From a virus: DNA of 34,146 nt. A program made the translations under genes and the position numbers. Location of the stretch: the IMG/VR virus record IMGVR_UViG_3300018424_000091, positions 1-34,146 of that record. The stretch is one strand, 5' to 3'. Below, in pieces: positions 2,457 to 33,850 of the stretch (position 1 is the stretch's first letter; each line of letters opens with the position of its first letter). The notes beneath the pieces were generated by a model. It saw only the letters and a list, made by a program, of their open reading frames with translations, did no database searches and had not been told where the DNA came from.

Positions 2457-3340
2457 TGTTTGCGCACGAGCAAGTAAAAACATTTTTGCAGAGGGCGATT
2501 GAAGGATCAGCCTCCCTCCCCGAGAATGTGGTAGACGAGTTCCTGAACGATTGTAAGGAGGCGATCAACAAACAGTTCACGGAAAAAGATACCAACTGGC
2601 GTCTTCGCATGTCAGGTCTGGGGCGGCCCATCTGTCAACAGATCTTAGACAAGGAAGGTCACGTCGAAGAACGCGAGTACAACTTGCTCCTGCGCTTTTT
2701 CATTGGGGATTTAGTCGAGGCCGCTGTGATGGCCATCTTAAAAGGTGCGGGTGTTCAGATTGTTGACAGCCAGAAGCCTTGCAAGTTGACCCTCTCTGAC
2801 ACGGAAGTCAAAGGCACCCTCGACGTAATCCTCGATGACCCTGTTGACGGAATCAAAGTCTGGGACATCAAGTCTGCGAGCCCGTATTCTTTCTCTCAAA
2901 AATTTGGGAAGGGATATCACGGGATCAAAGAGGATGACCCCTTTGGTTACGTCATGCAAGGTCACCTGTATGCAGAAGCTAACGACCTACCCTTTGGCGG
3001 GTGGATTGTTGTAGATAAATCTTCTGGTCAAATTGAGTTTGTACCTGCTCCAGACGAACAGTCTGAAGACAGAGAGGAATGCCTCAAGGAGGCGGCTAGT
3101 AAGGTTAAAGCGTTGACAGGGGATAGTCCCTTCAAGAAACTGTTCAAAGCTGAACCCGAGACTTACCGTCGTGATGGAAAGGTGTTGAAAACTGGCAATA
3201 CGTTGCTTCCGAAGCTGTGCTCAATGTGCGGACATCGTAGTTTATGCTGGCCTAAAGCCCAACTACACCCTAAGGTAACCTCCAAAGCTCGGATTAAACC
3301 TCTGGCGTGGTACGAAAAAATTAAGGTAAAAGAACTATGA
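2456..3340 (+). CDS. Cas4/RecB-like PD-(D/E)XK exonuclease with predicted 4Fe-4S cluster
   Basis: A 294-residue nuclease of the RecB/Cas4 type. Residues in order: Cys60 (RPIC), a GDLVE segment at 84-88 in the place of the first helix motif, Asp123 (TLDVIL), the DIK motif at 137-139 giving Asp137 and Lys139, QGHLY at 168-172 (the QxxxY motif), and a C-terminal Cys255-x2-Cys258-x5-Cys264 cluster. One N-terminal Cys plus a C-x2-C-x5-C tail is the Fe-S arrangement of Cas4 and AddB. Family members degrade single DNA strands and load recombination. No cas genes or repeat array are present, so a phage recombination/replication role or host DNA breakdown is more likely than CRISPR adaptation. It is coupled to the gene before by TAATG and to the gene after by ATGA. 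Confidence 0.8.
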   Translation: MFAHEQVKTFLQRAIEGSASLPENVVDEFLNDCKEAINKQFTEKDTNWRLRMSGLGRPICQQILDKEGHVEEREYNLLLRFFIGDLVEAAVMAILKGAGVQIVDSQKPCKLTLSDTEVKGTLDVILDDPVDGIKVWDIKSASPYSFSQKFGKGYHGIKEDDPFGYVMQGHLYAEANDLPFGGWIVVDKSSGQIEFVPAPDEQSEDREECLKEAASKVKALTGDSPFKKLFKAEPETYRRDGKVLKTGNTLLPKLCSMCGHRSLCWPKAQLHPKVTSKARIKPLAWYEKIKVKEL

Positions 3341-9034: not shown

Positions 9035-9349
9035 TTATCTGTCGACGTTCATGCGGCCCGGAGTAGGAGATCCTTCTAATTGTGCCCGCTTCATTTCTAA
9101 TTCTTCACGCATCTGTTGCAACACTTCAGGAGATAGCTTCTTCTCTTCGAGTGCTCGTTCCATCTGACCAATCTGTCGCATTAAGGTTTCGCGTCTTTCT
9201 GCGGTCATTTTATTTGCTCTTTCCCCCATAGTACCGGAAGGAGTTCCAGACTCTCGTTTCTTACGAGTATCCCCGCCATACATCATTTTTTTACGGGTAT
9301 CACCGCCTGCCATCATCGGTTTGCGGCCTTCGTTGCTATACATTTTCAT
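9035..9349 (-). CDS. Small Met/Gly/Lys-rich phage protein
   Basis: The last gene of the late operon, 104 residues. The N-terminal third is low complexity, rich in Met, Gly, Lys and Arg, with a direct repeat of MM-x-GGDTRKK (12-20 and 22-30). Residues about 45-90 form a charged helix likely to be a coiled coil (ERRETLMRQIGQMERALEE). Short proteins with such Met/Gly/Lys openings are common near structural genes of marine phages, without known function. Its ATG overlaps the stop of the giant upstream gene (TAATG), so it is probably made with the virion proteins. Confidence 0.65.
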   Translation of the reverse strand: MKMYSNEGRKPMMAGGDTRKKMMYGGDTRKKRESGTPSGTMGERANKMTAERRETLMRQIGQMERALEEKKLSPEVLQQMREELEMKRAQLEGSPTPGRMNVDR

Positions 9350-12300
9350 TACTGTAGTCCTCGTACTTGTTGAACATCTAATGGTTCGTCAAAAGGATAG
9401 TCCATTGGAATATCGTCTTCTTCTTCGTTCTCTCTGAATCCGCGTGCGATTGATGTAATCATTGCTTCTTCAAAGCGTCGTGCTTCTTTACCGGTTGGAA
9501 TTTTACCAGTGCGTACAATCTCTGCGATGTGTCGCGCAATCTCAGGATTAGCTACTGCTTTTGCAAATGCTGATTGACTTGCGAGTCGAGTGCTCTGGAT
9601 AAGAGCCTCGGAGATTACGTAGCGTGTAGACACTACTCCCCGAGCGATAGAGTACACACGTGACAACCACGACTCGATAGAGAGTGAACGGGCTTCCCCG
9701 GTAATATTTACGTTGTCGTATACCTCGTTTTTACGCGCGAGGTAATCGGTAATTGCCTTAACATCGTCGTAGTGTTCTTTGCCCAGTACGAGTTCGAGGT
9801 TGGCCGCGGCAATTCGTTGCGTCTCTGAACCGTTGGCATCACCAACGAGATCCACCAGTTTACGTGAGTCGATAGTCTGTGCTCGTCTAGCACCTTCGGC
9901 TACAGTGACAATCTCTCCTGATGTTCCGGGGCCTGTCGCTACGTTGTTTATGTGCCGAGACACAGAGCGTTTAACGTAGTTGTTAAAGCCTTCCTCTGCC
10001 CACATAATTACCTGATCTAAGTCAGTGCGTCCCGCAAGTTTTGCCTCGTTGTACACGCGTTTGATGTGCGCTTCTCTTAGTTCATCTAAGACAGGAAGAC
10101 CGTCTCCTGCGATAACTAAATCGTAGAGTTGCTTATCCCCCTCTGCACCGTACCCGAAACGCTGTGCAAAGTTTGACGCGGATATCTTATCGCTGTTCTC
10201 CACAGAAAACCTGCGACTTGCTTCAGATTTTAGTGTGGCCTTCATGTCGATGATACGTGCTCCAGTTTCATCTGCTAACTCCGCAACCTGCTTGTTCACT
10301 GAGCGCAAGTTCTTGAAGCTAATCATGTCGAAGATCTCGTCGAGATCAATGAGGGGTTCCATCTTAATGATGTTACCCGCGTCGTCGAATGTATGTACCA
10401 TCAGACCTGCGGCGGCGTCGAATATAGGGTCATCTAGAAAGACGAGACCTTCGGCAAGCTTCGTAGGGTCTTCTGCAAACAGTTTCTCTAAGTAGCGCAC
10501 CGTATCTTCGGGTGTCGTGCCCTTGTCAATGCTGTTAAGGAAGTTAATAGCCCCCGGTGTTCTGGCCATGCGTTGTCTGAGATACGGAATAAGAGTTGCC
10601 CGCAATCCGTCGACCGCTTCTTTGTTAGCCGCATCCAGAAGGTATTGGTCTCCTACTCGTCTTCCATCGAACGCTTTCGCGACTTTCTGATCAAACACCG
10701 CGTTAACTTGTGCCCCGGTCATGTCTGCCTTGACACCAGAGAATAGTGTGTCGTACCAGAAAGACGGCCCCTCACCGTCGCGGAAGTCTAGCTCTGCAAG
10801 GTCTGAATCTTGTCCGAGACGAATACGCTCTTGCGTCATACTCCACTTACTCAGGACTTCGTCGCGGCGGATTCTGTCGATCTCGTTATGCTTAAAGTCA
10901 GTGTTTATTCCCCGTAAACTATCTGTCAGTTCTTTACCTACAGGTGATCCACGAGAGAATGTACCGTCTTCATTTTCTACAAAATTAAAGAAGTCTTTAC
11001 GGAACCCGAGGTTTTCATCTTCGGAAACAGCGAGGAAGTTTTCTCTGGTTCTCGCCGACTCAATTGCCCCCTGCGGCCGAGAGCTACGAGCCTTCTCAAA
11101 CGCGCGGTTACCCATCGCGGAACCAACCAGCCGCATCTCGCGAGGAGAAATCGGGAGGGACAACTTAGCCGCCACCTCTTTAGCTTGCTCAACAGATACT
11201 TTACCAGCAAGCCCAGACGCTTCGAGGGTCTCTTCGGTTGCTGTTTTTAAGAAATCTTGTAAGCCCAGCCACTTGTCAAACGGCATCGCATCCTCTGGGA
11301 CATCCGCCGCTTCCATGATCTTGTCAAAGGTTTCGTCTCCGAGACTGGTCCGCCAGAACTTCATCTCGAGTTGTGCGCCCTTTCCGAATAGTTCGTTGAG
11401 TGCCGCCCGCTCCTGTGTGCTTAGGGTAACTCCATAGGCTCTCTTAACATTTGGGCCGACCCCCTGTAGAGGAGACGGTTGAAGTCCGATGTTTTGAAGC
11501 CGTGGGTCGCCGAGGTCTGCGCCCCCTTTTGTATTGATGTCTTCCCAGAGAACTCGACCGTCCATGTACGTGTCTTCAGGAGCATTCGTCTCCCACTTCC
11601 GGTACATTTTATCAATGCGTGCGGCTCGTTTTTTACCCAGAGCATGGAAGATACCAGACATCGTTAGGGAGGGGTCACCGTTCTTTGTTCCGTTAAGTAG
11701 TCGCATATCTTCAGCAACTTTCAACAGCGCAGTCAAACGATCACCAACCGCCTGACTCTGTGCATTGAGGATGTCGTCCGGGTCTGCTCCCTGCGCAATC
11801 ATCTCTGCTGTGCGCATGTCGTCTGCTGTGTTGAATGCAACTTCGTAGTTAGGTACGCGGTAGCCGCCTCCGGGCAGAGCTTGAATCTTCTGTCCCGAGA
11901 GATACAATTGAGCATGCATCGCCTGATCTTCAGCCATCTGTGTTAGCTGTGCCTGACGTAGTGTTAAGTCTGCGTCCATCTCGCCTTGTAGCTTACGCAA
12001 GTCTGTTACATATTCTGCGAGTTCAGGGTATCGCTCTGCGTAAGACGGATCTTCGTAGATAGAGAGTCTGTCGAGCGCCCTTGCAAGCGAATCGACTGAG
12101 TTACGTTCCTGTACGATCAGTTTGCTTATGTCCTGAAACGTCTTGTTAAATCCCGCAATATCTCCCAGTTTTATAGCCTGACCGAGAGCCTGTTGATGCA
12201 CCCGGAGCAACGGGATGTTAATGAGTTCTGCCGTAGTAAAGCCAACTTCATTGGGGTCGACAAGAGGTCTTCCAGTGCCCGGATCTGTGATGTTCAAGAT

Positions 12301-14307
12301 GCGAGATAGTACTTCGTCTCCTCGCTCAATCACTGCTACAACATTCTCGTAATCTTCTGGCTCGAGCTTACGTAGCGTAGAGAACCATTCTCTTGCTTCC
12401 CGCGGTATTTTGGATGCATCGCCCACATTTCCGCCGCCAAATATCATTCTTTTTAGAACATTTAAAGCAGTTACGGTTAAGACAACAGGTGGTCTGTACA
12501 CCTTTTCTACGACTCCCGGTGCCATAGCGGCAGTGAGGGTGCCTCCAACTTCTGTCAGCGTCAGGCCGATTGGGCTGGTAACACCAGCGTCCTGCGCAAT
12601 CTGGCCCATAAAGGCCGCGCCCCCAATACCTACAGTGCTCTCTTTTACGAGTTGCTTTACATATGGTGGGACTTTCATCTCCGCATCAATGCGGCGGATC
12701 CTTTCCTCTGCTCGCGTTACCCGCTGTTGTGCCTTAGCTAATTCGTCGGGAGTCACGCCGGCTTTGTTCTTTGTTTCTGTAAGTATCTTACGTGCTGTTT
12801 CGACTTCCTTGCCAGCAGACTCAATCTGCTTACCCATGACTTGCTCGCGGTAATTTGTGGAGCCGGCCATTTTAAATGACGACCAGATATCGAGATCATC
12901 AATCTTGCCTGCACGTGCCCAGTTGTTGAGAGCTTTGACGGGGTACAGATTAACTTGTTTTTCAAGATACGTGGATAGGATATCCCCCACGCTCTTCTTA
13001 CTTGCTTTAACAGCGGCTTCCATCGATGTAGGGTTGCCCCACTGGTCCTGTGTCTTCAGCCACTTGTGGAATTGTGCGTATCCTCGTTTTGCTAGTGCTG
13101 TACGTACGACACCAGCAATCCCCATGTCGATCATAATTTCAGGCGCAACATCGGTTGTACGAGTCAGCAAATCAGGGGAGAAGAGCAGTGCTGATTCTGC
13201 CTGCTCGATAGGAATGTTGTAGTTCTTTGCGAGGCGGTTAGCCGCCATTGGAAACTTCTCGAAGTCAATACGCTTCTTACCGTCTTCACCCTCAACCATA
13301 ACGTCATCGTTTTCTTCGCTGGTAAAGTAGTCATACATACCCACCGAAAGGTTTACGAGAGCAATCATCGTGTCACTAGCTCGGCCTGCTTTACGCATAG
13401 CGTCGAGGTTACCTGATGCCTGTGCGAAGGCGAGATCTCGGAGGATGTAGGGGTTAACGTATCCCGTACGGTCCATGAACTTGATAAACTTACCAGCTTT
13501 TGCCTCTGCTCCCAACAGAACTAAATCAGGGAGTGAGCGTGCGACACCACCGATTGTTGCATCAGTAAATGGAATACCTACATCTGAGAGTCCAACAGCA
13601 TCTGTTATAGCTTCAATCGATCCGGAGGACTTTGCGTACTCTGATTCAAAGTAACGAAGCTCTTGTACCGCTGGCACTGGTTTAAATTCGAGGTTTATCG
13701 GACGTCCCTGTGCGTCTTTGTCTCCTGCAAACACGAGATCTGTTGCTCCAGCTTTTGCCGCAATGCGTGCTTTCTCTTCGTAGTTTGCGTCAGAGGGAAA
13801 GTACCCGGAACGCCGATCCCCAAAGACGTCGTAAATCTTTCTTCCTGATGTAGGGTTAACGCTAGTGTCAATAATGCCCGTGCGGAATCCGATTGCATTT
13901 TCTAAGTCTGTACGGATTGCTGTGTCGTCGCCTTTACCGTACGGTTCCCAGTACCGCTGGTATATAGCCCTGTTGTTTTCAGGAGTATTTAAGGAGAAGT
14001 CCAGCATCGCTTCCCCGGCCGCACCGGGGACTTCACGCTCTGTCTCAAACCCTGTTGCGATACCGAATCCGGGGATTTCGCCGCGATCCATTATTGGACC
14101 TTCAGGCATTTCGTTGACGGTAACCCCCGCTGTCTTGACAGGCTGTTGCAGACCCTCATCGATCATATCTTGCACAGTCTGAAGATTGTCGTAATCGTCT
14201 TGAGTAATAGGGTCTGTACTGACTTCAGTTATGCCCGCGGCCTTTTTGTCTTCCTCGTCAGTTGTTCCGAGAGTTAGAGCATCCATTTGTGCGTTTAAAT
14301 CAGCCAT
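9349..14307 (-). CDS. Giant internal virion/DNA-ejection protein (predicted)
   Basis: At 1652 residues this is the largest protein in the window and the penultimate late gene. It is soluble and helix-rich with no recognised enzyme motif and no visible lytic transglycosylase signature. A coiled-coil-like stretch lies at about 495-545, followed by a Gly/Ala-rich hydrophobic region at about 555-625 that could contact membrane. Podoviruses encode one very large core protein near the end of the late operon (T7 gp16, 1318 residues) that leaves the capsid with the DNA and spans the host envelope; size and position suggest the same role. The start at 14307 has AGGAAAA upstream and lies 13 bp after the preceding stop. 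It shares no motif I can match to gp16, so the call is by context. Confidence 0.6.
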   Translation of the reverse strand: MADLNAQMDALTLGTTDEEDKKAAGITEVSTDPITQDDYDNLQTVQDMIDEGLQQPVKTAGVTVNEMPEGPIMDRGEIPGFGIATGFETEREVPGAAGEAMLDFSLNTPENNRAIYQRYWEPYGKGDDTAIRTDLENAIGFRTGIIDTSVNPTSGRKIYDVFGDRRSGYFPSDANYEEKARIAAKAGATDLVFAGDKDAQGRPINLEFKPVPAVQELRYFESEYAKSSGSIEAITDAVGLSDVGIPFTDATIGGVARSLPDLVLLGAEAKAGKFIKFMDRTGYVNPYILRDLAFAQASGNLDAMRKAGRASDTMIALVNLSVGMYDYFTSEENDDVMVEGEDGKKRIDFEKFPMAANRLAKNYNIPIEQAESALLFSPDLLTRTTDVAPEIMIDMGIAGVVRTALAKRGYAQFHKWLKTQDQWGNPTSMEAAVKASKKSVGDILSTYLEKQVNLYPVKALNNWARAGKIDDLDIWSSFKMAGSTNYREQVMGKQIESAGKEVETARKILTETKNKAGVTPDELAKAQQRVTRAEERIRRIDAEMKVPPYVKQLVKESTVGIGGAAFMGQIAQDAGVTSPIGLTLTEVGGTLTAAMAPGVVEKVYRPPVVLTVTALNVLKRMIFGGGNVGDASKIPREAREWFSTLRKLEPEDYENVVAVIERGDEVLSRILNITDPGTGRPLVDPNEVGFTTAELINIPLLRVHQQALGQAIKLGDIAGFNKTFQDISKLIVQERNSVDSLARALDRLSIYEDPSYAERYPELAEYVTDLRKLQGEMDADLTLRQAQLTQMAEDQAMHAQLYLSGQKIQALPGGGYRVPNYEVAFNTADDMRTAEMIAQGADPDDILNAQSQAVGDRLTALLKVAEDMRLLNGTKNGDPSLTMSGIFHALGKKRAARIDKMYRKWETNAPEDTYMDGRVLWEDINTKGGADLGDPRLQNIGLQPSPLQGVGPNVKRAYGVTLSTQERAALNELFGKGAQLEMKFWRTSLGDETFDKIMEAADVPEDAMPFDKWLGLQDFLKTATEETLEASGLAGKVSVEQAKEVAAKLSLPISPREMRLVGSAMGNRAFEKARSSRPQGAIESARTRENFLAVSEDENLGFRKDFFNFVENEDGTFSRGSPVGKELTDSLRGINTDFKHNEIDRIRRDEVLSKWSMTQERIRLGQDSDLAELDFRDGEGPSFWYDTLFSGVKADMTGAQVNAVFDQKVAKAFDGRRVGDQYLLDAANKEAVDGLRATLIPYLRQRMARTPGAINFLNSIDKGTTPEDTVRYLEKLFAEDPTKLAEGLVFLDDPIFDAAAGLMVHTFDDAGNIIKMEPLIDLDEIFDMISFKNLRSVNKQVAELADETGARIIDMKATLKSEASRRFSVENSDKISASNFAQRFGYGAEGDKQLYDLVIAGDGLPVLDELREAHIKRVYNEAKLAGRTDLDQVIMWAEEGFNNYVKRSVSRHINNVATGPGTSGEIVTVAEGARRAQTIDSRKLVDLVGDANGSETQRIAAANLELVLGKEHYDDVKAITDYLARKNEVYDNVNITGEARSLSIESWLSRVYSIARGVVSTRYVISEALIQSTRLASQSAFAKAVANPEIARHIAEIVRTGKIPTGKEARRFEEAMITSIARGFRENEEEDDIPMDYPFDEPLDVQQVRGLQ

Positions 14308-14320
14308 GAATTTTCCTGTT

Positions 14321-16411
14321 TTATCGAACGGTCGGGACAGCAGAGTCAGGTGCTGTTTGACGTATCTGCGGATCTAGTGGCGTCAGAGTGGGAGACGGCG
14401 AAGGTGAACGGCTTGACATTCCAGAACCTGATCCATATTCGATGTCAAGGAAACTTTCCGCAGTCATTCTGAACGAGCCTCTCTGGTTAAAGAGGTAAGC
14501 GGCCGCGGCAATATCTCCCATATCTCCTGTTGCAAACCCATCAGATACTGTCTTCATAAAGGCCGCTTCTTCTCGGAGTTGCGCTAGAGTTGGTAAAGAC
14601 GTTTCGAGGTCGACCATCATTCCCATGATTCCGCCCATACGTTCCCCTGCAAGACGAACGTCGTAGTCAGAAATGTTACGGAAGTCTCCGCCTTGAAGCA
14701 TCGATGCAACACTGTACATCAAAGCTCGAGACACGGCTTTGTAAAGCTTTTCAGCATCTACGTTGCCACTGCGAAGCCCTCGCTTAACGTCGGCGCGAAG
14801 ATTGTTAAAATCGCGTCTCGCTTCCATGTCTAACTGAGGATTGAGAGGGCGATAATCATCTGAAAAAGGCTTTAGGTCGACAGCGTCTAGTATTGCCTCA
14901 AATTGATTCATCATTCCCGGCACGGTCATTAGGACCTCGGCGGAAAGGCCGCCTTTCACACCGTGCTTTGTGATGAGATCAGTGAGTAAGTCCACTTGAT
15001 TTATGATGTTGGTTGCGGCGCGACTACGGTTCGCATGATCTTGAATGTCTTCCTTTGTAACATTCTGCGATATTAACTGCTGTGCAGTTGTTTTGCCGCC
15101 TTTAAATTTACCCGGAAGTTTATTTACTAACGATCCGCCGAACATTGCTTTTACGAGCTTCATTTTTTTCTTTGGGTCGTTATCAAAATTGGCTAGAAGT
15201 TCGTTGATCTGAGTGGCATTCGGCGGGACTACGTTAGTCATGTCTAGCTGTAACATACCGTCTTGCACAACATACGGGGTGTTTTCGCTGTACCATTTCT
15301 GTGAGTCTGTGTACGCTTTTATAAACTGTTGAGAACCTTCAGAACCCATTGAGTTGAGTGTTTGGAATACCTCAATCTCGTTCATGTCGCCGTCTTTAGA
15401 AATCTTAGCTACTTGCGATTTAAAATCTGAGGAGTACCCTTTTGTCTTTTCGTCTACAGCCCACCCCAGAGAAGTGTAGTCTTCAGTGCTAACAACTAAT
15501 TGTCCAGTTTCATCATCGAAATCTGTGGGCCCGTTTACAGGAAGACCTAAGTGTCTTCGTACGTCGTTAGCTCCCATCTCGACAGCATCGCTAATTGTGC
15601 TCATAACAACTGCATCGAAAAACGTGTCGTTAGCACCGGCAAGTTCTTCTCCGTAAATAGGATCGTAGTCAATTATTGATTGAATGACATACGCATTTTC
15701 GTCGATTTTCATCTTTGCTTGTTCAGACGTCGAGTAATCACGCCAGAACATTTGCAGTTGTGTAATTGCTCGGTTTAAATTTTGAGGCTTGCCGTTTTCA
15801 GCTTGCTGTTGAAAGATTTTCAGGTGGCCGTCTCTAAACAAAAAGTCAGTTATCGCTCGCAACCCAGAATCACTACGGGTATCCCCTGTGCCGCCCTTTG
15901 CCTTGTACGTAAATCCGTACACATCTTTGCCGAGAACAGGAGATGTTTTAGCAGTAGACAGGCCCTTGTAGTAGCCATCCAAATTTCCATCTACCGCAAA
16001 GTCGACAACGTCCATATCTTTGTTGTCGCCGATTAGATGGGCAAAGGGAGAATACTTATTGATTGGGTCTGGCTTGTCTTCTTTGTCTTTCTTAACAAAA
16101 GGCTCGACGAACTCCACCCCACTCATTGTTGCGACGGCTACTTTTGCCTGCGGGTTTTGGCCGTATTTTGCATTCCAATTTTCCGCCTCTTGAACATTGA
16201 TGGCGTACTTTGAGGCGTTTTCGCTTGCAGAAATACCTGCTGTAAGTGAAGCCTTAGCCAGTTCTCTTTTTTCTTGCGCTTCTAACTCTGCCTTTTTAAG
16301 AGCCAGTGCCTGCTCATCCTTTTTCTTTTGTATCTCCGCGGCTTTCTTCGCCGCAGTGTTTTCATTCAACTGCGTCGTAGCTCCGAGAAGTGCTGAGAGA
16401 ACAAAACTCAT
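14321..16411 (-). CDS. Predicted internal virion protein
   Basis: A 696-residue helical protein directly before the giant protein. Residues 15-60 are a highly charged Ala/Lys/Glu helix (KKAAEIQKKKDEQALALKK), probably a coiled coil. The middle is mixed and globular, and the last 35 residues are a Ser/Pro/Thr-rich tail (SRSPSPSPTLTPLDP). No enzyme motif is seen. T7 gp15 has a similar size (747) and the same position next to gp16, so a part in the ejection machine is a reasonable inference. The ATG overlaps the preceding stop (ATGA). Confidence 0.55.
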   Translation of the reverse strand: MSFVLSALLGATTQLNENTAAKKAAEIQKKKDEQALALKKAELEAQEKRELAKASLTAGISASENASKYAINVQEAENWNAKYGQNPQAKVAVATMSGVEFVEPFVKKDKEDKPDPINKYSPFAHLIGDNKDMDVVDFAVDGNLDGYYKGLSTAKTSPVLGKDVYGFTYKAKGGTGDTRSDSGLRAITDFLFRDGHLKIFQQQAENGKPQNLNRAITQLQMFWRDYSTSEQAKMKIDENAYVIQSIIDYDPIYGEELAGANDTFFDAVVMSTISDAVEMGANDVRRHLGLPVNGPTDFDDETGQLVVSTEDYTSLGWAVDEKTKGYSSDFKSQVAKISKDGDMNEIEVFQTLNSMGSEGSQQFIKAYTDSQKWYSENTPYVVQDGMLQLDMTNVVPPNATQINELLANFDNDPKKKMKLVKAMFGGSLVNKLPGKFKGGKTTAQQLISQNVTKEDIQDHANRSRAATNIINQVDLLTDLITKHGVKGGLSAEVLMTVPGMMNQFEAILDAVDLKPFSDDYRPLNPQLDMEARRDFNNLRADVKRGLRSGNVDAEKLYKAVSRALMYSVASMLQGGDFRNISDYDVRLAGERMGGIMGMMVDLETSLPTLAQLREEAAFMKTVSDGFATGDMGDIAAAAYLFNQRGSFRMTAESFLDIEYGSGSGMSSRSPSPSPTLTPLDPQIRQTAPDSAVPTVR

Positions 16412-17602: not shown

Positions 17603-18955
17603 TTAATCCCCGAATACCCAGTTAAGTGCGGCCTTACCCATCTGAACACCTAAGTTGTCCACGAGTTCTTGCTCGTACGCATCTTTGTTGAAGTTTTCTT
17701 GCATCGCCAACATACCGACTGCGTGTGCCCGCTGTGCTTCGTTTTCTGAAACCTGAAACGCCCATGATACTTCGTCCCGGTACTTTTGCCACAGAGCATT
17801 CTGAGCAGATGTGGTTAAACCGAGTAGGTTTGCCGCATTGACACGATTCTCTTCGTTTTGTGCGGCAGTGTTTGCGAGGTTTGTTTCCCGTCTCCACGCC
17901 GCGTTTGACTGATCGATCTGCGCTTGCATGTTGATGTTAAACTGTTCGCGTTGGTTGTTTGCCTGTACGGTAAACTGTTCCATCGCGTTCTTCTGGTCAA
18001 CGTTGAACTGCTCCATCGCCGCCATACGGTTTGCGTTTGCGTTGTCGACCTGAACGCCGAGTTCGGCGAAGAACTCCTCGACTTGAATCTGGTTCTTTGC
18101 GTTGAACTGTGCTGTGGCATTCTCAGCCGCGGCGTCCGTAAAGAGAGCTTGAATTTTTGCGTTGTACGTAAGGGTACGAGCTTGCTGTTCGTTGTCCAGA
18201 TTTGCGAGGTCCATCTGTAAGAAAGACTTTGCATTGTTGACTGCCGCCGTCATGCGTGCATCTAAGTTGGCACGATCCATCGCCGCGTACGTTGCGGCAT
18301 TCTGTAGGGCGGCTTGTTGCTCGTTGTTTAAATTCTGTATCTGTATATCAGCATAGCGTTGAGCGTCAGCATTTGCAATAGGTAACGCTGATTCTGCGAG
18401 AGCTTGTATTGTCGCCGCGGCCGCTACGGAGCTTGAACCGAGACCACGAGAGGCCATTACTGCATTTGCCGCACGTGCCGCAGGTGCCGCCCACGGAGGA
18501 AGTTGATCCCCTTCGTCGAGACTCTTGTATAGCTCAGATATCTGATACTGAGTTGTGGCTCGTACATCGAGATCTGCTGTTGCCGCAGTTGCAATAGATT
18601 CTTGTGAGACTTCCCCTTGTATCTCTTCGACTACTGCTTCTGGGCTAACTTCCCCCGTTGCGGCTGTCGCTGTATCGACGTCGTCCGCTGTCGTCGTCGT
18701 AGTTACCGTAGGTATTTCTGGTGTTTCCGGCTTGTCAATCTCAAGATTATCACTGCTTGCCAGAGATGTTGTTACGTTCACGTCCTCTAGTTTGTCAGGG
18801 GCTTTCAAGATTTCATCGTCTTTTACCTCGATGTCTGTAGCCTCATACTTTGTCCCCTCAGGCAAAGTGGCAGGACTGTCTCCTAAACCGGCCTGCTCTT
18901 TGACCTTGTCCTTAATACCTTCGTTGTTGCCGACATCTTGATTAAAAGTGGCCAT
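17603..18955 (-). CDS. Coiled-coil virion structural protein
   Basis: A 450-residue protein in two parts. Residues 1-130 are acidic and Thr/Val/Glu-rich with a TTTTTT run near 85, probably extended. Residues 150-450 are Ala/Gln/Asn-rich and helical, starting with VMASRGLGSSS and AATYAAMDRANLDARM, with LNNEQQA and LDNEQQA repeated. Proteins with these phrases occur in the structural regions of marine phages as I recall them. A Gln/Asn/Ala helical rod could be an internal core protein comparable in role to T7 gp14, or a neck or fibre-attachment part. It is the first gene after the membrane cluster. Confidence 0.6.
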   Translation of the reverse strand: MATFNQDVGNNEGIKDKVKEQAGLGDSPATLPEGTKYEATDIEVKDDEILKAPDKLEDVNVTTSLASSDNLEIDKPETPEIPTVTTTTTADDVDTATAATGEVSPEAVVEEIQGEVSQESIATAATADLDVRATTQYQISELYKSLDEGDQLPPWAAPAARAANAVMASRGLGSSSVAAAATIQALAESALPIANADAQRYADIQIQNLNNEQQAALQNAATYAAMDRANLDARMTAAVNNAKSFLQMDLANLDNEQQARTLTYNAKIQALFTDAAAENATAQFNAKNQIQVEEFFAELGVQVDNANANRMAAMEQFNVDQKNAMEQFTVQANNQREQFNINMQAQIDQSNAAWRRETNLANTAAQNEENRVNAANLLGLTTSAQNALWQKYRDEVSWAFQVSENEAQRAHAVGMLAMQENFNKDAYEQELVDNLGVQMGKAALNWVFGD

Positions 18956-26747: not shown

Positions 26748-27125
26748 CTATCGGTCCCTCACTCTCAATACGATGTCACGGTCTGTAATTACAGCGGCCC
26801 CTGTAGCACCTGCTACGTCAGTCGTAATTTGGCATGAAAGGGTGTAAGTTTGCCCGTTAATCCCTTTATCTAAGACAATAGTCAACTTGTTACCATCCTG
26901 AAACTGCCCTGCGTTTATCAGTCCAACTGATGAATCAGAAGATGCAGAGACTGCGTCGTCTTCAAATACTTCTCCCAGATCAAAATTTACAAAAGTTCCA
27001 TCCGCCTTTTTGATCTTCCACTGAAATGCCGCAATATCTACATTAAGTCTACGCAAGTAGAGAGTCCAATCTACGGTAAAGTCCAGTTTATCCCCGGAGT
27101 CTTTATCAGGAAATTTGTAAGCCAT
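26748..27125 (-). CDS. Small beta-rich phage structural protein
   Basis: A 125-residue protein starting MAYKFPDKDSGDKLDFTVDWTLYL, which is the opening of many small phage virion proteins (FPxKDPxxxLDYxVDWxxxL), followed by strand-rich sequence (KLTIVLDKG, GQTYTLSCQITTDVAG) and a basic RDIVLRVRDR end. It looks like an Ig-like beta fold. It lies between a giant repeat protein and the tail adaptor. Its function is unknown; a tail-associated decoration or connector role is possible. The start overlaps the preceding stop (TAATG). Confidence 0.6.
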   Translation of the reverse strand: MAYKFPDKDSGDKLDFTVDWTLYLRRLNVDIAAFQWKIKKADGTFVNFDLGEVFEDDAVSASSDSSVGLINAGQFQDGNKLTIVLDKGINGQTYTLSCQITTDVAGATGAAVITDRDIVLRVRDR

Positions 27126-30100
27126 TATGAAACTATCCTTATATAACGTCGGCGTTCCGGGAATATAAGCGCATAGCGTATTGTATCGCTATGCACGGTC
27201 ACTACAGAAGGAGGGTCCGCAGGAATTGTAATTGTCCGGAACGGAGAAATATCCTCCGCGATAAGCGGTCTCGTAACAAATGCTGAAGCGGCTAGTGTTG
27301 CAGAAGACTCTACAGTCCCAGTAAAACCGAAAACAAAGCTCGAAGACGCCGACGTGCTCGCTGTTGCTTCTGTCGACCCACTAAATACGAGATACGTTTC
27401 AATAGAACCAGAAGCAGTGGCTGTACCACTAACTGTGGAGCCTACGTCTTTAACTATTGTACAGCTTGCGGAAAGATTTGTCGAGCCCGTCGAGCTACCA
27501 GCCGCGTCTTTAAGACGAATTAAACTCGCCGAAGTTGTTGATGATCCGGCTATCGATCCTTCAATGCCTTGTAACGTTGTACCTTCACCAGATACAGTCG
27601 CAGTTGTTGCTACAGAACCGGATTCGCTAATAACGAACGAAGCGTCGCCGCTAACCGATGCGGTGCCCGTTACACTAGCCGCAACATTTTTAATAAGAAC
27701 AAAAGTACCAGAAACCGTCGACGTGCCAGTAATGTCGGCTGTTTCAGCGTCCGTACTTACTACTACGTCAGGGTCTATTACCGATACAGTCGGAAGAGTA
27801 CCCGTTGCAGTTGCCGCTACACTGGCAGAAACAGACGGTGCAGAAACAGAGACTGTCGCACCTGATGCCGTGGCAGTATCATCAACGTCAGCATCTATAA
27901 CGGGAGAAGAAACGGTAATCGTTGAGCCTGTTGCCTCTGCTACGGCTCCTCCATTTACATCGACAACAGGAGAAGAAACATCGATTACATCGCCAGCCGC
28001 TTGCGCTCTAGCTCCTCCGTTAGCATCGACAGCAGGAGACGAAATACTAACTGTGCTACCAGTTGCTTGTGCTGTATTAGAGCTTCCTGCATTCGTCACT
28101 GGCGACGATATGATAATCGTCTCACCTGTTGCCTCTGCTACGGCTCCTCCATTTACATCGACAGCAGGAGAAGAAACGTCGATTACATCGCCAGCCGCTT
28201 GTGCTGTAGCCCCTCCTTTAGCATTAACAACAGGAGACGAAATACTAACTGTGCTACCAGTTGCCTGTGTTCTAGCTCCTCCGTTAGCATCGACAGCAGG
28301 AGACAAAACATCGATTACATCGCCAGCCGCTTGTGCTCTAGCTCCTCCATTAACATCGACCACTGGGGATGAGATACTAACGGTGCTACCCGCGGCCTGC
28401 GCGATAGCTCCACCGCTAGCATCAACAGCGGGACTCGTTAGGGGTATGTTTACGCCTGACGCAGTTGCCGTATCGTCTACTGTTACCAAAACGGTTGGGG
28501 CGTTAACAGAGATAGTAGCCCCTGATGCAGAGGCAACTGTCTCCACGGTATTAGCAACAGAGGGAGCAGAAATAGAGACAGTCACGCCTGCCGCCGAAGC
28601 CGTAACATCCTCGACAGCAATGCCATCTGGTGCAGTAATGGTTGTTGTTAGTTCAGCGACTTGTAAAGCGGAGTCGGTAATATCGACTTCCATGTCCGTG
28701 TCAAATGTTTGGACTGGCTCACTAAGGCTTAAATATTTCTCTGCCTTATCCTTATATTCCGTACTGTCATCATGGAACCATATGAAGTCATCGGTAGAAT
28801 CGCCAATACAGTAGTTTGCATACGTACCGTCAGCGAATTTTTTAGCCTCGGCCCTAAACAGAGCCGCGCTCGGGCTAGCAGATGTATCTGAATAGACGCT
28901 TATTAAGTCCCCATTTTCTGCCGCGAGGTACAGATAATACTTAGCGTTTACTGTGATCGGCCAGACTAAATAATTTTGCCTAGAACGACTTCCCCAATCG
29001 CCCCTCCACGGAAGAACTGTCCTCGCGGGCGGCCATTCCTGCGGAGTTCCTGAGCCTATATTGATAGGGAAAATTGTGACATCTGAATAGTCGGTGCGAC
29101 TAGATACTTTAGCGGGAGCCCAATTGCTGTATAACAAACTATTCGTATTAATGTGGGAAACCGAAGCATTCCAACTTATCGCACGAACATTGACGTATAA
29201 ATACGTTCCTGAGTAAGTTCCTGATGTTTGGAAACTCACCGCAGGCGTTATCATTTGGACGTCACCGCTAGCCGCCGGATGAATTTCTAGGTCGCCATCT
29301 ATGAATGATGACCCTCTAAGGGCATCTACATAATCAGCGTATATCCCAAAGTTCGCCCATTGCATGAAGGCATCGACGCGAATAATCGTGAGATTGCCAC
29401 TTAGGTCAAATTCCCACGTTGCCATCCATGAATTGTTTGAAGAATCGGTGCTTTTTTTGCCGTCAAACCAAACCAACGCTCTCTGACTATCCCAGTCAAT
29501 CAGCCGCTTGTTTATGGTGGTGTATGAGTTAACGGTCCAACTTCCCGCACCTGTGCCTGACGACAATGTGAATGTAGTCGGGAACGACAGGTTTACTGTT
29601 GGGAAGTTAAAATTGTGCTTTGTGGTGAATCGATCAACTCGCCCTGCGTAGGTGCTTAAGGTTCTAACTCTGATGTCTTGATCAGGTGCAGTGACGGTGA
29701 TGGACAAATTGTCCGAAATAGTGACTGTTTTTGATGCTGAAGCAGATGAAACAGGCGCAGTAAGACCGACTTCGATACTGTCGGAGAATGTTGCCGTAGC
29801 ACCAGCAAGTACAGATGCTTCAGCCGCTGTTAGGCCAATGGTCGCGGCCTGTACCTGCGTGATGGCCCCCGCATTGGCGCTTGCCACCGGGAGACTCCGC
29901 TCGATTACGAATGGTACCTGAGAAAAGTCCTCTACAAACGTAATGCTTCCGCCCATACCACTGTGGATGCCACAGTAGTAGTATAGGTCAGGCGTAGATG
30001 TTGTGACTTCAATTTCGACATACGCCCCGGCATTGCCTGCTGTGCCGACTGTCGTTACATTGGTAGTGTACTCTGTACCGCTGTTGTGGGTACCGTCGGA

Positions 30101-30580
30101 AGTCGTTGAGAACTTGAAGGGGTGTCCACTGATTGTGGAGTCAGATACATCGAAGCGGTAGATTCCAACTTCGTGTAGTGAGAGGGAGTCTTGTTTGACT
30201 CCATCGATATAATACTTGTTTCCGGACCCGTCGTTAGAGACCGTAACGGTAAATGTTTGTCGGGCCTTGTGTCCATCGACAGCAATTGTCGCGCCGCCCT
30301 TTGCTGTTGCGGCGGGGTCGCTAAGTGTGAGGGTAACACCTGAAGCAGATGCTGTTATAGCTATACCAGCCGTTGCGGCGGGATTATTGACGGTGACAGT
30401 TACGCCAGCGGCGGATGCGGTCACATCAACATTGCCAGCCTCAACTGTCTGGGTAGTGACGCGCCCAATAGCATGCACGCCAATCGCAGATACGCCAATA
30501 GCACCGACATATGATTGTGCCTGTGCCTGCTCTTTTTCAGCGGCTATGGGAGCTTCAGCAAACGCCTTAAATCCAAACAC
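27125..30580 (-). CDS. Large repeat-containing tail/adhesin protein with cupredoxin-like domain
   Basis: A 1151-residue beta-rich protein. Residues 45-100 hold ASAAGVTVTV-x-x-P units; 106-216 form a cupredoxin-like domain with Met, His and Cys positions of a type 1 copper site (His153 in GHPFKF, then Cys203-x2-His206-x2-Met209 in YYCGIHSGMGG); about 300-640 is a larger globular part rich in Trp; about 660-950 holds repeated 22-residue units ending in V-S-S-P; 950-1100 has a further TxSGxxxF family of repeats. The C-terminus (RRYIRIVS) is short. It starts with GTG overlapping the stop of the preceding gene (TAGTG). It is probably a long virion adhesin. Copper binding is not demonstrated. Confidence 0.7.
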   Translation of the reverse strand: MFGFKAFAEAPIAAEKEQAQAQSYVGAIGVSAIGVHAIGRVTTQTVEAGNVDVTASAAGVTVTVNNPAATAGIAITASASGVTLTLSDPAATAKGGATIAVDGHKARQTFTVTVSNDGSGNKYYIDGVKQDSLSLHEVGIYRFDVSDSTISGHPFKFSTTSDGTHNSGTEYTTNVTTVGTAGNAGAYVEIEVTTSTPDLYYYCGIHSGMGGSITFVEDFSQVPFVIERSLPVASANAGAITQVQAATIGLTAAEASVLAGATATFSDSIEVGLTAPVSSASASKTVTISDNLSITVTAPDQDIRVRTLSTYAGRVDRFTTKHNFNFPTVNLSFPTTFTLSSGTGAGSWTVNSYTTINKRLIDWDSQRALVWFDGKKSTDSSNNSWMATWEFDLSGNLTIIRVDAFMQWANFGIYADYVDALRGSSFIDGDLEIHPAASGDVQMITPAVSFQTSGTYSGTYLYVNVRAISWNASVSHINTNSLLYSNWAPAKVSSRTDYSDVTIFPINIGSGTPQEWPPARTVLPWRGDWGSRSRQNYLVWPITVNAKYYLYLAAENGDLISVYSDTSASPSAALFRAEAKKFADGTYANYCIGDSTDDFIWFHDDSTEYKDKAEKYLSLSEPVQTFDTDMEVDITDSALQVAELTTTITAPDGIAVEDVTASAAGVTVSISAPSVANTVETVASASGATISVNAPTVLVTVDDTATASGVNIPLTSPAVDASGGAIAQAAGSTVSISSPVVDVNGGARAQAAGDVIDVLSPAVDANGGARTQATGSTVSISSPVVNAKGGATAQAAGDVIDVSSPAVDVNGGAVAEATGETIIISSPVTNAGSSNTAQATGSTVSISSPAVDANGGARAQAAGDVIDVSSPVVDVNGGAVAEATGSTITVSSPVIDADVDDTATASGATVSVSAPSVSASVAATATGTLPTVSVIDPDVVVSTDAETADITGTSTVSGTFVLIKNVAASVTGTASVSGDASFVISESGSVATTATVSGEGTTLQGIEGSIAGSSTTSASLIRLKDAAGSSTGSTNLSASCTIVKDVGSTVSGTATASGSIETYLVFSGSTEATASTSASSSFVFGFTGTVESSATLAASAFVTRPLIAEDISPFRTITIPADPPSVVTVHSDTIRYALIFPERRRYIRIVS
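27900..28440 (-). repeat. 66 bp tandem repeat (about 8 units) in the 1151-residue protein gene
   Basis: Units start at 27945, 28011, 28077, 28143, 28209, 28275, 28341 and 28407, a perfect 66 bp spacing encoding 22 residues. Units come in three kinds (STVSISSP, DVIDVSSP and ETIIISSP/STITVSSP) arranged as higher-order pairs and triples. Confidence 0.85.
29933..30265 (-). other. Cupredoxin-like domain region (residues 106-216) of the 1151-residue protein
   Basis: The region codes an upstream His in SGHPFKFS and a YYCGIHSGMGG end. The C-x2-H-x2-M spacing is that of amicyanin (Cys92, His95, Met98). The intervening strands (IYRFDVSDS, YVEIEVTTSTPDLYYYC) fit a small Greek-key beta barrel. Confidence 0.6.
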
Positions 30581-30945
30581 TATTCAACTACCCACTGAAG
30601 ATTGTCTTCGTCCCAGTATGCTGTTTCAACCCCTAATTCAATATCAGGCATCGGAACTGGGGCTTCCCACAAACAAGTGCTTTCATCGAGTACCCACGAA
30701 TCAAAAGGTTTTGGAGGAATAAACGCGTCTCTCTCTGCATCATAAACGTGGCCTATCCCCGCAAAGTTTTTTCGGAACACCTTATTATAGCTCGTTTGTA
30801 CCCACTCGCCCCCAAACAAGGACTGCAAAAACTGAATTCCTAACGACTCTTGCTCAACTAGATCTCCGTCCTCGAGCACTGTGTTCTCAACAACGACAAC
30901 TTGCTCAACGATGTTTTCTGCATTGATCTTCGCAAAATGAGCCAT
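30580..30945 (-). CDS. MAHFA-type marine-phage tail-region protein, copy 1
   Basis: A 121-residue protein beginning MAHFAKI and containing VVVVEN, FGGEWVQTS, FRKNFAGIGHVYD, RDAFIPPKPFDSWVLDE and a closing W. I recognise this as a small protein widespread near tail fibres in marine phages, without a known role; it may be a fibre-binding or assembly protein. A second copy lies at 33494. Here it follows a glycine-rich adhesin gene whose stop overlaps its start (TGATG). Confidence 0.7.
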   Translation of the reverse strand: MAHFAKINAENIVEQVVVVENTVLEDGDLVEQESLGIQFLQSLFGGEWVQTSYNKVFRKNFAGIGHVYDAERDAFIPPKPFDSWVLDESTCLWEAPVPMPDIELGVETAYWDEDNLQWVVE

Positions 30946-33110: not shown

Positions 33111-33491
33111 TTATCCTCCGAATACGATTGCCATAGCGATGGCTTTACCTGTTGTTACACCCGCCGCCGGTATATCACTCGGATCAACAATCTTCTGTGC
33201 AGGCAGTACCATTAAAATATCTTTTGACCCTGCTCCCCAGTTTACGGCGCTTCCGCTATTGCTCGACTCTAAGATCGTTGTTCGAGCGAGGGTTGTGCCA
33301 CTGGCTGTATAGGTGCCAACACCGAGCTCCCAATCTGTACCATCGGTAATCTGATAATACGTTGTGTCGCCGTTAGACATGACGGAGGAAAACGTCTGAA
33401 ACCCTGTTGGGGCCGTACCACTGAGTGTTACCGTTCCAGTGCCAGTCGTGGTTGTGGTTTCCTGTACTCGGTTTTTAAGAACTAGCGCCAT
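33111..33491 (-). CDS. Small conserved marine-phage tail-region protein
   Basis: A 126-residue protein starting MALVLKNRVQETTTTTGTGTVTLSG, with later GFQTF, TTYYQITDGTDWELGVGTY, TASGTTLARTTILESSNSGSAVNW and DILMVLPAQK. This pattern is widespread in marine phages near fibre genes; function is unknown. It is likely a beta-sandwich tail accessory. The last residues (AMAIVFGG) are hydrophobic. It lies two bases before the next gene. Confidence 0.65.
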   Translation of the reverse strand: MALVLKNRVQETTTTTGTGTVTLSGTAPTGFQTFSSVMSNGDTTYYQITDGTDWELGVGTYTASGTTLARTTILESSNSGSAVNWGAGSKDILMVLPAQKIVDPSDIPAAGVTTGKAIAMAIVFGG

Positions 33492-33493
33492 AT

Positions 33494-33850
33494 CTACACC
33501 TCAAACCATGTTTGTGTCGGCTCATCCCACTGGTATACAGCGTCATCTTCTGGGCGGATAACAGGAGCTACCCATCTCGCCGTTTCTTCATCTAAGACCC
33601 ATGAGTCAAACGGTTGAGGTGGAATAAATGCATCTCTTGCTGAATCATAGGTGTAATTTTTAGTTGCAAAGTTTTTGCGGAATGATCCGCTTTTACTTGT
33701 CTGAATCCATGTTCCGCCTAATAAATTACGGCAAAACTCTTGACCGAGATTTTCTGATGCATTTCCGTCTGCATCCAATAAAACATCATCGTTGACAACC
33801 AAAACGCGAAGGACAACATTGTCTAAACCGATTTCTGCGAAGTGCGCCAT
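33494..33850 (-). CDS. MAHFA-type marine-phage tail-region protein, copy 2
   Basis: A 118-residue paralog of the protein at 30580, sharing MAHFA, VLVVNDDVL, LGGTWIQTS, FRKNFATKNYTYD, RDAFIPPQPFDSWVLDEE and a Trp-rich end. Its ATG overlaps the stop of a glycine-rich adhesin gene (TAATG), the same arrangement as for copy 1, so the two genes were probably duplicated together. Confidence 0.7.
   Translation of the reverse strand: MAHFAEIGLDNVVLRVLVVNDDVLLDADGNASENLGQEFCRNLLGGTWIQTSKSGSFRKNFATKNYTYDSARDAFIPPQPFDSWVLDEETARWVAPVIRPEDDAVYQWDEPTQTWFEV

Follow-up and report, generated by a model that had tools for sequence, protein, structure and literature searches.

A cupredoxin-like domain with a predicted type-1 metal site in a phage tail fibre and its relatives in virion proteins of marine phages

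Plastocyanin, pseudoazurin and amicyanin share the ligand set His...Cys-x2-His-x2-Met with the phage domain described here, but they are free proteins, whereas the phage domain lies within a large fibre, has its own conserved loop and carries a His-Pro following the first ligand. Rusticyanin, AcoP and the N-terminal domain of the three-domain copper nitrite reductase have the same fold and ligand topology, but they are cellular electron-transfer proteins rather than parts of a phage fibre, and their identity to the phage domain is only about 12-18%. Ig-like and cadherin-like decoration domains are likewise mobile beta-sandwich modules of phage and bacterial surface proteins but, unlike the phage domain, are without the His/Cys/His/Met site. 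Where phage fibres were linked with a metal, this has mostly been iron, held by HxH motifs. For marine phages, predicted iron-bearing HxH fibres and a Trojan-horse hypothesis have been published (PMC11705849). The HxH iron sites of T4 gp37-type fibres and of alterophage R22Y are thus metal sites proposed or shown on a phage fibre, with the Trojan-horse link (PMC11705849), but they differ from the cupredoxin domain in fold, ligands and presumed metal, and the 11 His of the fibre ORF studied here include no H-x-H pair.

The material is the 34,146-base IMG/VR virus record IMGVR_UViG_3300018424_000091, whose full length is called the window below and which holds one copy of the domain, in a tail-fibre gene (Table 1). 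We propose that this copy is a cupredoxin domain with a complete predicted type-1 metal site, serving as a mobile surface or spacer module on virions and probably binding copper, a reading that we hold to be likely, though far from settled. The cupredoxin is a known kind of domain; what is new is its use as a phage virion module and its place as a new branch of the family. A literature search, with many subscription papers outside its scope, returned no paper that had already described a cupredoxin domain in a phage virion.

Fold and predicted ligands of the fibre domain

The fibre ORF, with 3 Cys, 11 His and 5 Met, matches PHROG tail-fibre families, mainly at the cupredoxin domain itself, and is about 40% identical to its relative L220 along most of its length; a scan for relatives of its middle part returned none. 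The product of the adjoining gene independently resembles the fibre-tail adaptor Gp77 of podophage GP4 (PF23148). Since this adaptor follows the gene and the PHROG families match the domain region, the label tail fibre is fair, and the sequence-only reading, which had spoken of a tail protein, was right on this point.

AlphaFold2, supplied with an alignment of 26 relatives (model residue 1 being aa 104), predicted a cupredoxin-like sandwich of nine strands at a mean pLDDT of 88.5 and a pTM of 0.84. In the model, Cys203 (model residue 100) stands at the end of strand 96-100, His206 and Met209 (103 and 106) lie in the loop preceding strand 107-113, and His153 (50) is just ahead of strand 52-55. 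This predicted arrangement of strands and ligands is the type-1 copper topology, as in blue-copper proteins, the clustering of the ligands being judged from topology and profile alignment. Foldseek against the PDB placed rusticyanin on top (E 7.8e-4), followed by AcoP, laccases, an azurin with the amicyanin loop and pseudoazurin, and in VIA-align, over 103-108 residues, the first cupredoxin domain of Hyphomicrobium nitrite reductase reached Z 8.6 and rusticyanin Z 8.3. Although a Z near 8 is modest on its own, fold, ligand order and profile alignment all point the same way, which is convincing, and the cupredoxin-like domain that had been read from the letters is borne out by a confident sandwich whose nearest solved folds are blue-copper proteins. 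Among predicted viral structures, the matches were mainly marine phage structural proteins. A single-sequence search of the PDB returned an antibody chain alone (E 0.17).

A profile of 30 diverse domain copies reached plastocyanins in the PDB weakly, at E of about 0.1, with the phage His, Cys and His facing the plastocyanin ligands and the Met coming after a two-residue insertion. In a single pairwise profile-profile comparison with PF00127 members from marine bacterial genomes, which are of pseudoazurin type, the probability was 75% and E was 2.4e-5, with all four ligands paired. At the cut-off of Pfam PF00127 (Copper-bind) the query itself was not listed, and the best of the 26 members scored E 0.028. 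Therefore, as PF00127 barely detects the members of the phage family that were scanned, this family is regarded as a separate cupredoxin branch and not as one already filed under PF00127. When single members were scanned against Pfam and NCBIfam, the outcome was scattered weak matches (CBM_4_9, Copper-bind and others), none convincing as a family assignment.

The four ligand positions had been numbered exactly in the sequence-only reading, its coordinates for the domain are likewise exact, on a minus strand that it had left unstated, and the C-x2-H-x2-M spacing that it described is present (CGIHSGM). Composition alone would produce this spacing with a probability of roughly 1e-4 by our own arithmetic, and a chance origin of the motif is ruled out because it is conserved in relatives. 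The loop CTPHPFM, named in the title of PDB entry 2fta, is that of amicyanin and has the same spacing. The likeness to amicyanin holds for this spacing and goes no further: by fold the domain is closest to rusticyanin, AcoP and a domain of a copper nitrite reductase, and members of the family differ in loop length. Amicyanin is a small free-standing periplasmic copper protein serving methylamine dehydrogenase, whereas the phage domain is embedded in a fibre of 1151 aa, and identity with amicyanin is thereby ruled out.

Another His that is common in the family, His165, was considered as an additional core ligand and rejected, as this position varies (H, F, W, N or a gap) in copies with an intact triad. 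A copper site alone does not account for the loop GTHNSGTEYTTG, which is strongly conserved and may be a contact surface.

Table 1. Positions of the fibre gene, its cupredoxin domain with the predicted ligands, and associated genes in the window
Feature	Position	Strand	Basis
Tail-fibre protein, 1151 aa, GTG start	27125..30580	minus	ORF; PHROG tail fibre; full-length relative L220
Cupredoxin domain, aa 106-216	29933..30265	minus	AlphaFold2 model (pLDDT 88.5, pTM 0.84); blue-copper fold matches in the PDB
His153, predicted first copper ligand (His-Pro-Phe)	30122..30124	minus	Pairs with ligand His of plastocyanin and pseudoazurin-type proteins
Family signature loop SDGTHNSGTEYTTNV, aa 161-175, includes His165	30056..30100	minus	Conserved in relatives
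Cys203, predicted thiolate ligand, sole Cys of the domain	29972..29974	minus	Position, conservation, profile alignments
His206, predicted second His ligand	29963..29965	minus	Position, conservation, profile alignments
Met209, predicted axial ligand (Met or Gln in the family)	29954..29956	minus	Position, conservation
Fibre-tail adaptor (Gp77-like), gene following the fibre gene	26748..27125	minus	PF23148, E 6.1e-10
Small protein of the fibre gene cluster; relatives elsewhere carry the cupredoxin module	33111..33491	minus	L112, L296

Conservation of the ligand set and constraint on the domain

A survey of ligand conservation in homologues had been suggested along with the original observation. 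The first IMG/VR relatives were fetched by patterns that included the motif, so conservation among them is biased upward. A second IMG/VR search used the segment between the ligands, which is blind to His153 and Cys203 (alignment A2), and returned at least 599 stretches; the His/Cys/His triad was complete in all 67 unique copies among the matches listed. Taken over 230 unique domains, falling into 62 clusters at 62% identity, 224 (57 clusters) had the full triad and 6 (5 clusters) had none of it, with no partial triad among the 230, and none of 100,000 shuffles by random re-pairing reached this all-or-none pattern.

The axial position is similarly restricted, with Met in 219 of the 224 intact copies, Gln in 3, and the two others truncated. 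L098, L145 and L149 are SAR86 copies with the axial Gln (C-x2-H-x2-Q). A Gln codon is two base changes away from Met, and in stellacyanin-type proteins the axial ligand is naturally Gln; the limit to Met or Gln therefore looks like the result of selection for a metal ligand. The loop may change in length with the ligands kept, as in the C-x2-H-x3-M of L256 and the C-x2-H-x4-M of L257, and such variation parallels that among blue-copper families. We consider it very likely that the predicted metal site of the fibre domain is functional.

Constraint is also evident within the fibre, which was compared with the full-length relative L220 and the partial relative L001. The domain is about 79% identical to both, whereas the other compared parts of the fibre are 26-52% identical to L220 and 27-40% to L001. 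Correspondingly, dN is 0.12-0.17 in the domain versus 0.57-0.97 elsewhere in the fibre for the two relatives, and 0.16 versus 0.57-0.70 against L220, with dS saturated or nearly so throughout the fibre, domain included. Recent exchange of the module between fibres is ruled out as the cause of the high identity, as synonymous sites in the domain are saturated too. Therefore, the low dN together with saturated dS shows that the high identity of the domain reflects long-term constraint by purifying selection, which is the opposite of the pattern of a hypervariable receptor-binding tip.

Distribution, mobility and decay of the site

A family-like query matched 208 of 50,697 GenBank phage records, which by name are phages of Synechococcus, Prochlorococcus, Pelagibacter and Methylophilales or marine or uncultured phages. 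The statement, in the sequence-only reading, that marine phage structural proteins contain similar YYC..HSGMGG sequences was therefore accurate, all 208 records belonging by name to marine lineages. The sequences flanking the domain fall into 57 clusters on the N-side and 60 on the C-side, and 28 ORFs hold two or three copies. Isolates with intact copies include S-B68, P-HM1 and HTVC028P. In a Pelagibacteraceae contig (L112) a homologue of the small protein encoded at 33111-33491 of the window has the domain inserted mid-sequence, and in L296 it is fused behind another such homologue. We conclude that the module is mobile, because it occurs in many flanking contexts, in tandem copies and as an insertion into another phage protein family.

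Relatives in marine bacterial genomes include chromosomal secreted proteins, with SAR86 among the sources; since several genome matches are phage fibres in single-cell or metagenome bins, bacterial refers here only to copies with cellular neighbours. One of them, L141, is lipoprotein-like, has cadherin and Big_9 domains and adjoins a molybdopterin oxidoreductase, and other bacterial copies are accompanied by RTX repeats, a PBP domain or DUF4214. The domain is thus no peculiarity of one phage, the module being widespread in marine phages and present in bacterial secreted proteins too.

In a looser search of 28 GenBank phage loci, the copies classified by eye comprised 35 intact, 10 with the triad lost, 4 partly decayed and 1 that ends at the record end. 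The partly decayed ones are gp7 copy B of S-RIM2 and of S-BM1 and the second copies in S-CAM4 and Sf-CH1b; all of them are without the Cys-x2-His-x2-Met loop, and there is no case of a retained loop with a missing first His. The all-or-none rule for the triad is therefore strong, but not absolute. Seven cyanomyovirus records have an intact site in the gp9 copy and in gp7 copy A but a lost one in gp7 copy B, and in five other records a large structural protein has an intact first copy and a second without the ligand loop. Within one phage, some positions hold the site over genera and others drop it. Since copies without the site persist in virion proteins, the fold can outlast the metal site.

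Two further kinds of copy were observed. In Cyanophage PSS2 (L085), positions 2992-3330 encode a 112-aa ORF that is almost the domain alone and has lost the His, Cys and His; it is annotated as a predicted protein in one record and as a baseplate wedge subunit in another. In P-HM1 (L249) and MED4-213 (L252), aa 689-783 of an ORF form a second, different cupredoxin-like copy of the type HPFYI...YYYQC..HGGM, which resembles a Flavobacteriaceae domain that passes PF00127 (L262).

Possible roles of the site and surroundings of the fibre gene

A point against the copper reading is that the cytoplasm, in which phage proteins fold, offers little copper. We propose that assembly of the fibre would take place in the host cytoplasm, the site then being empty or occupied by another soft metal, and that after lysis the preformed site would pick up copper from sea water. 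The bound metal could then pin the ligand loops and stiffen a compact exposed knob, which would act as a spacer or contact module. With these four ligands copper is the metal to be expected, but zinc or another soft metal may occupy the site; the identity of the metal as copper, the time of its loading and the structural or contact role are the inferred steps, which we present as the most likely course. A metal-stabilised surface or spacer module is favoured over electron transfer or a receptor tip because of the N-terminal position in the fibre and the spread over baseplate and structural proteins, and because of the tandem copies and the Ig and cadherin repeats alongside in bacteria.

The alternative that survives best, though we judge it rather unlikely, is that the cupredoxin fold has been reused without metal as an immunoglobulin-like decoration for adhesion or spacing, the four residues being relics or structural. 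Site-less copies do persist in virion proteins, bacterial copies adjoin cadherin, Big_9 and RTX repeats, and the protein contexts are many; but the three residues of the triad nearly always stay or disappear together, the axial position is confined to Met or Gln, and the same phages hold both intact and decayed paralogues. The sequence-only reading had allowed for such reuse, and this probably applies to the site-less copies but is unlikely for the fibre copy, in which the ligands are intact and conserved.

Less probable is that fibre copper serves as bait, recognised by a copper or metallophore uptake system of the host outer membrane in a copper version of the Ferrojan or Trojan horse. The iron HxH fibres of marine phages offer a precedent (PMC11705849), and the domain is strongly conserved and sits on surface proteins; it lies, however, close to the N-terminal end of this fibre (aa 106-216 of 1151) and, in other phages, in the baseplate proteins gp7 and gp9, not at receptor-binding tips, and it is common in bacterial secreted proteins too. 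Electron exchange between the domain and a redox partner on the host surface is more improbable still: electron carriers are among the closest folds, but the ten bacterial proteins scanned had no accompanying redox domain, and the phage copies belong to fibres and baseplate parts, for which no redox partner is known. An immunoglobulin V-set domain, as implied by the PF07686 annotation of the cyanophage P-HM1 protein and by weak profile matches to antibody chains through the YYC motif, can practically be discarded, because 226 of 242 domains, the fibre copy included, have a single Cys and hence no Ig disulphide, antibodies rank below cupredoxins by fold, and the conserved His, His and Met would be left unexplained.

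Returning to the cupredoxin reading with a predicted metal site, we advance more tentatively the wider view, to which we give slightly less than an even chance, that marine phages, cyanophages and pelagiphages included, routinely carry blue-copper-type sites on virion proteins, in a module shared with marine bacteria. If so, such sites would be found on fibres, baseplates and other virion proteins, virions would be a pool of organically bound copper that has yet to be counted, and virion stability or attachment could include a copper-dependent step. The cupredoxin reading also gives content to cyanophage annotations such as "hypothetical protein", "baseplate wedge" and "contains PF07686", and the module connects structural proteins of phages with proteins that SAR86 and further marine bacteria secrete. 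With a module under such strong selection, the claim is cheaply testable, through copper in marine phages and its effect on stability or infection.

In the window, a family-A DNA polymerase and a ribonucleotide reductase are encoded at one side and virion-type genes at the other, and the ORFs at 9349-14307 (1652 aa), 14321-16411 (696 aa) and 17603-18955 (450 aa) had no Pfam or PHROG match at E 0.001. Within the fibre gene, 27945-28433 consists of imperfect tandem DNA repeats with units of 66, 132 and 198 bases, encoding short repeated segments in the C-terminal half of the fibre; the plus-strand ORF that spans them (27354-28814, 486 aa) is probably a shadow ORF. The fibre region also encodes two paralogous small proteins of phrog_7759, at 30580-30945 and 33494-33850, whose 51% identity suggests a duplicated cassette. 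The product of 33111-33491 belongs to a family of small phage proteins that is widespread among the IMG/VR matches listed.
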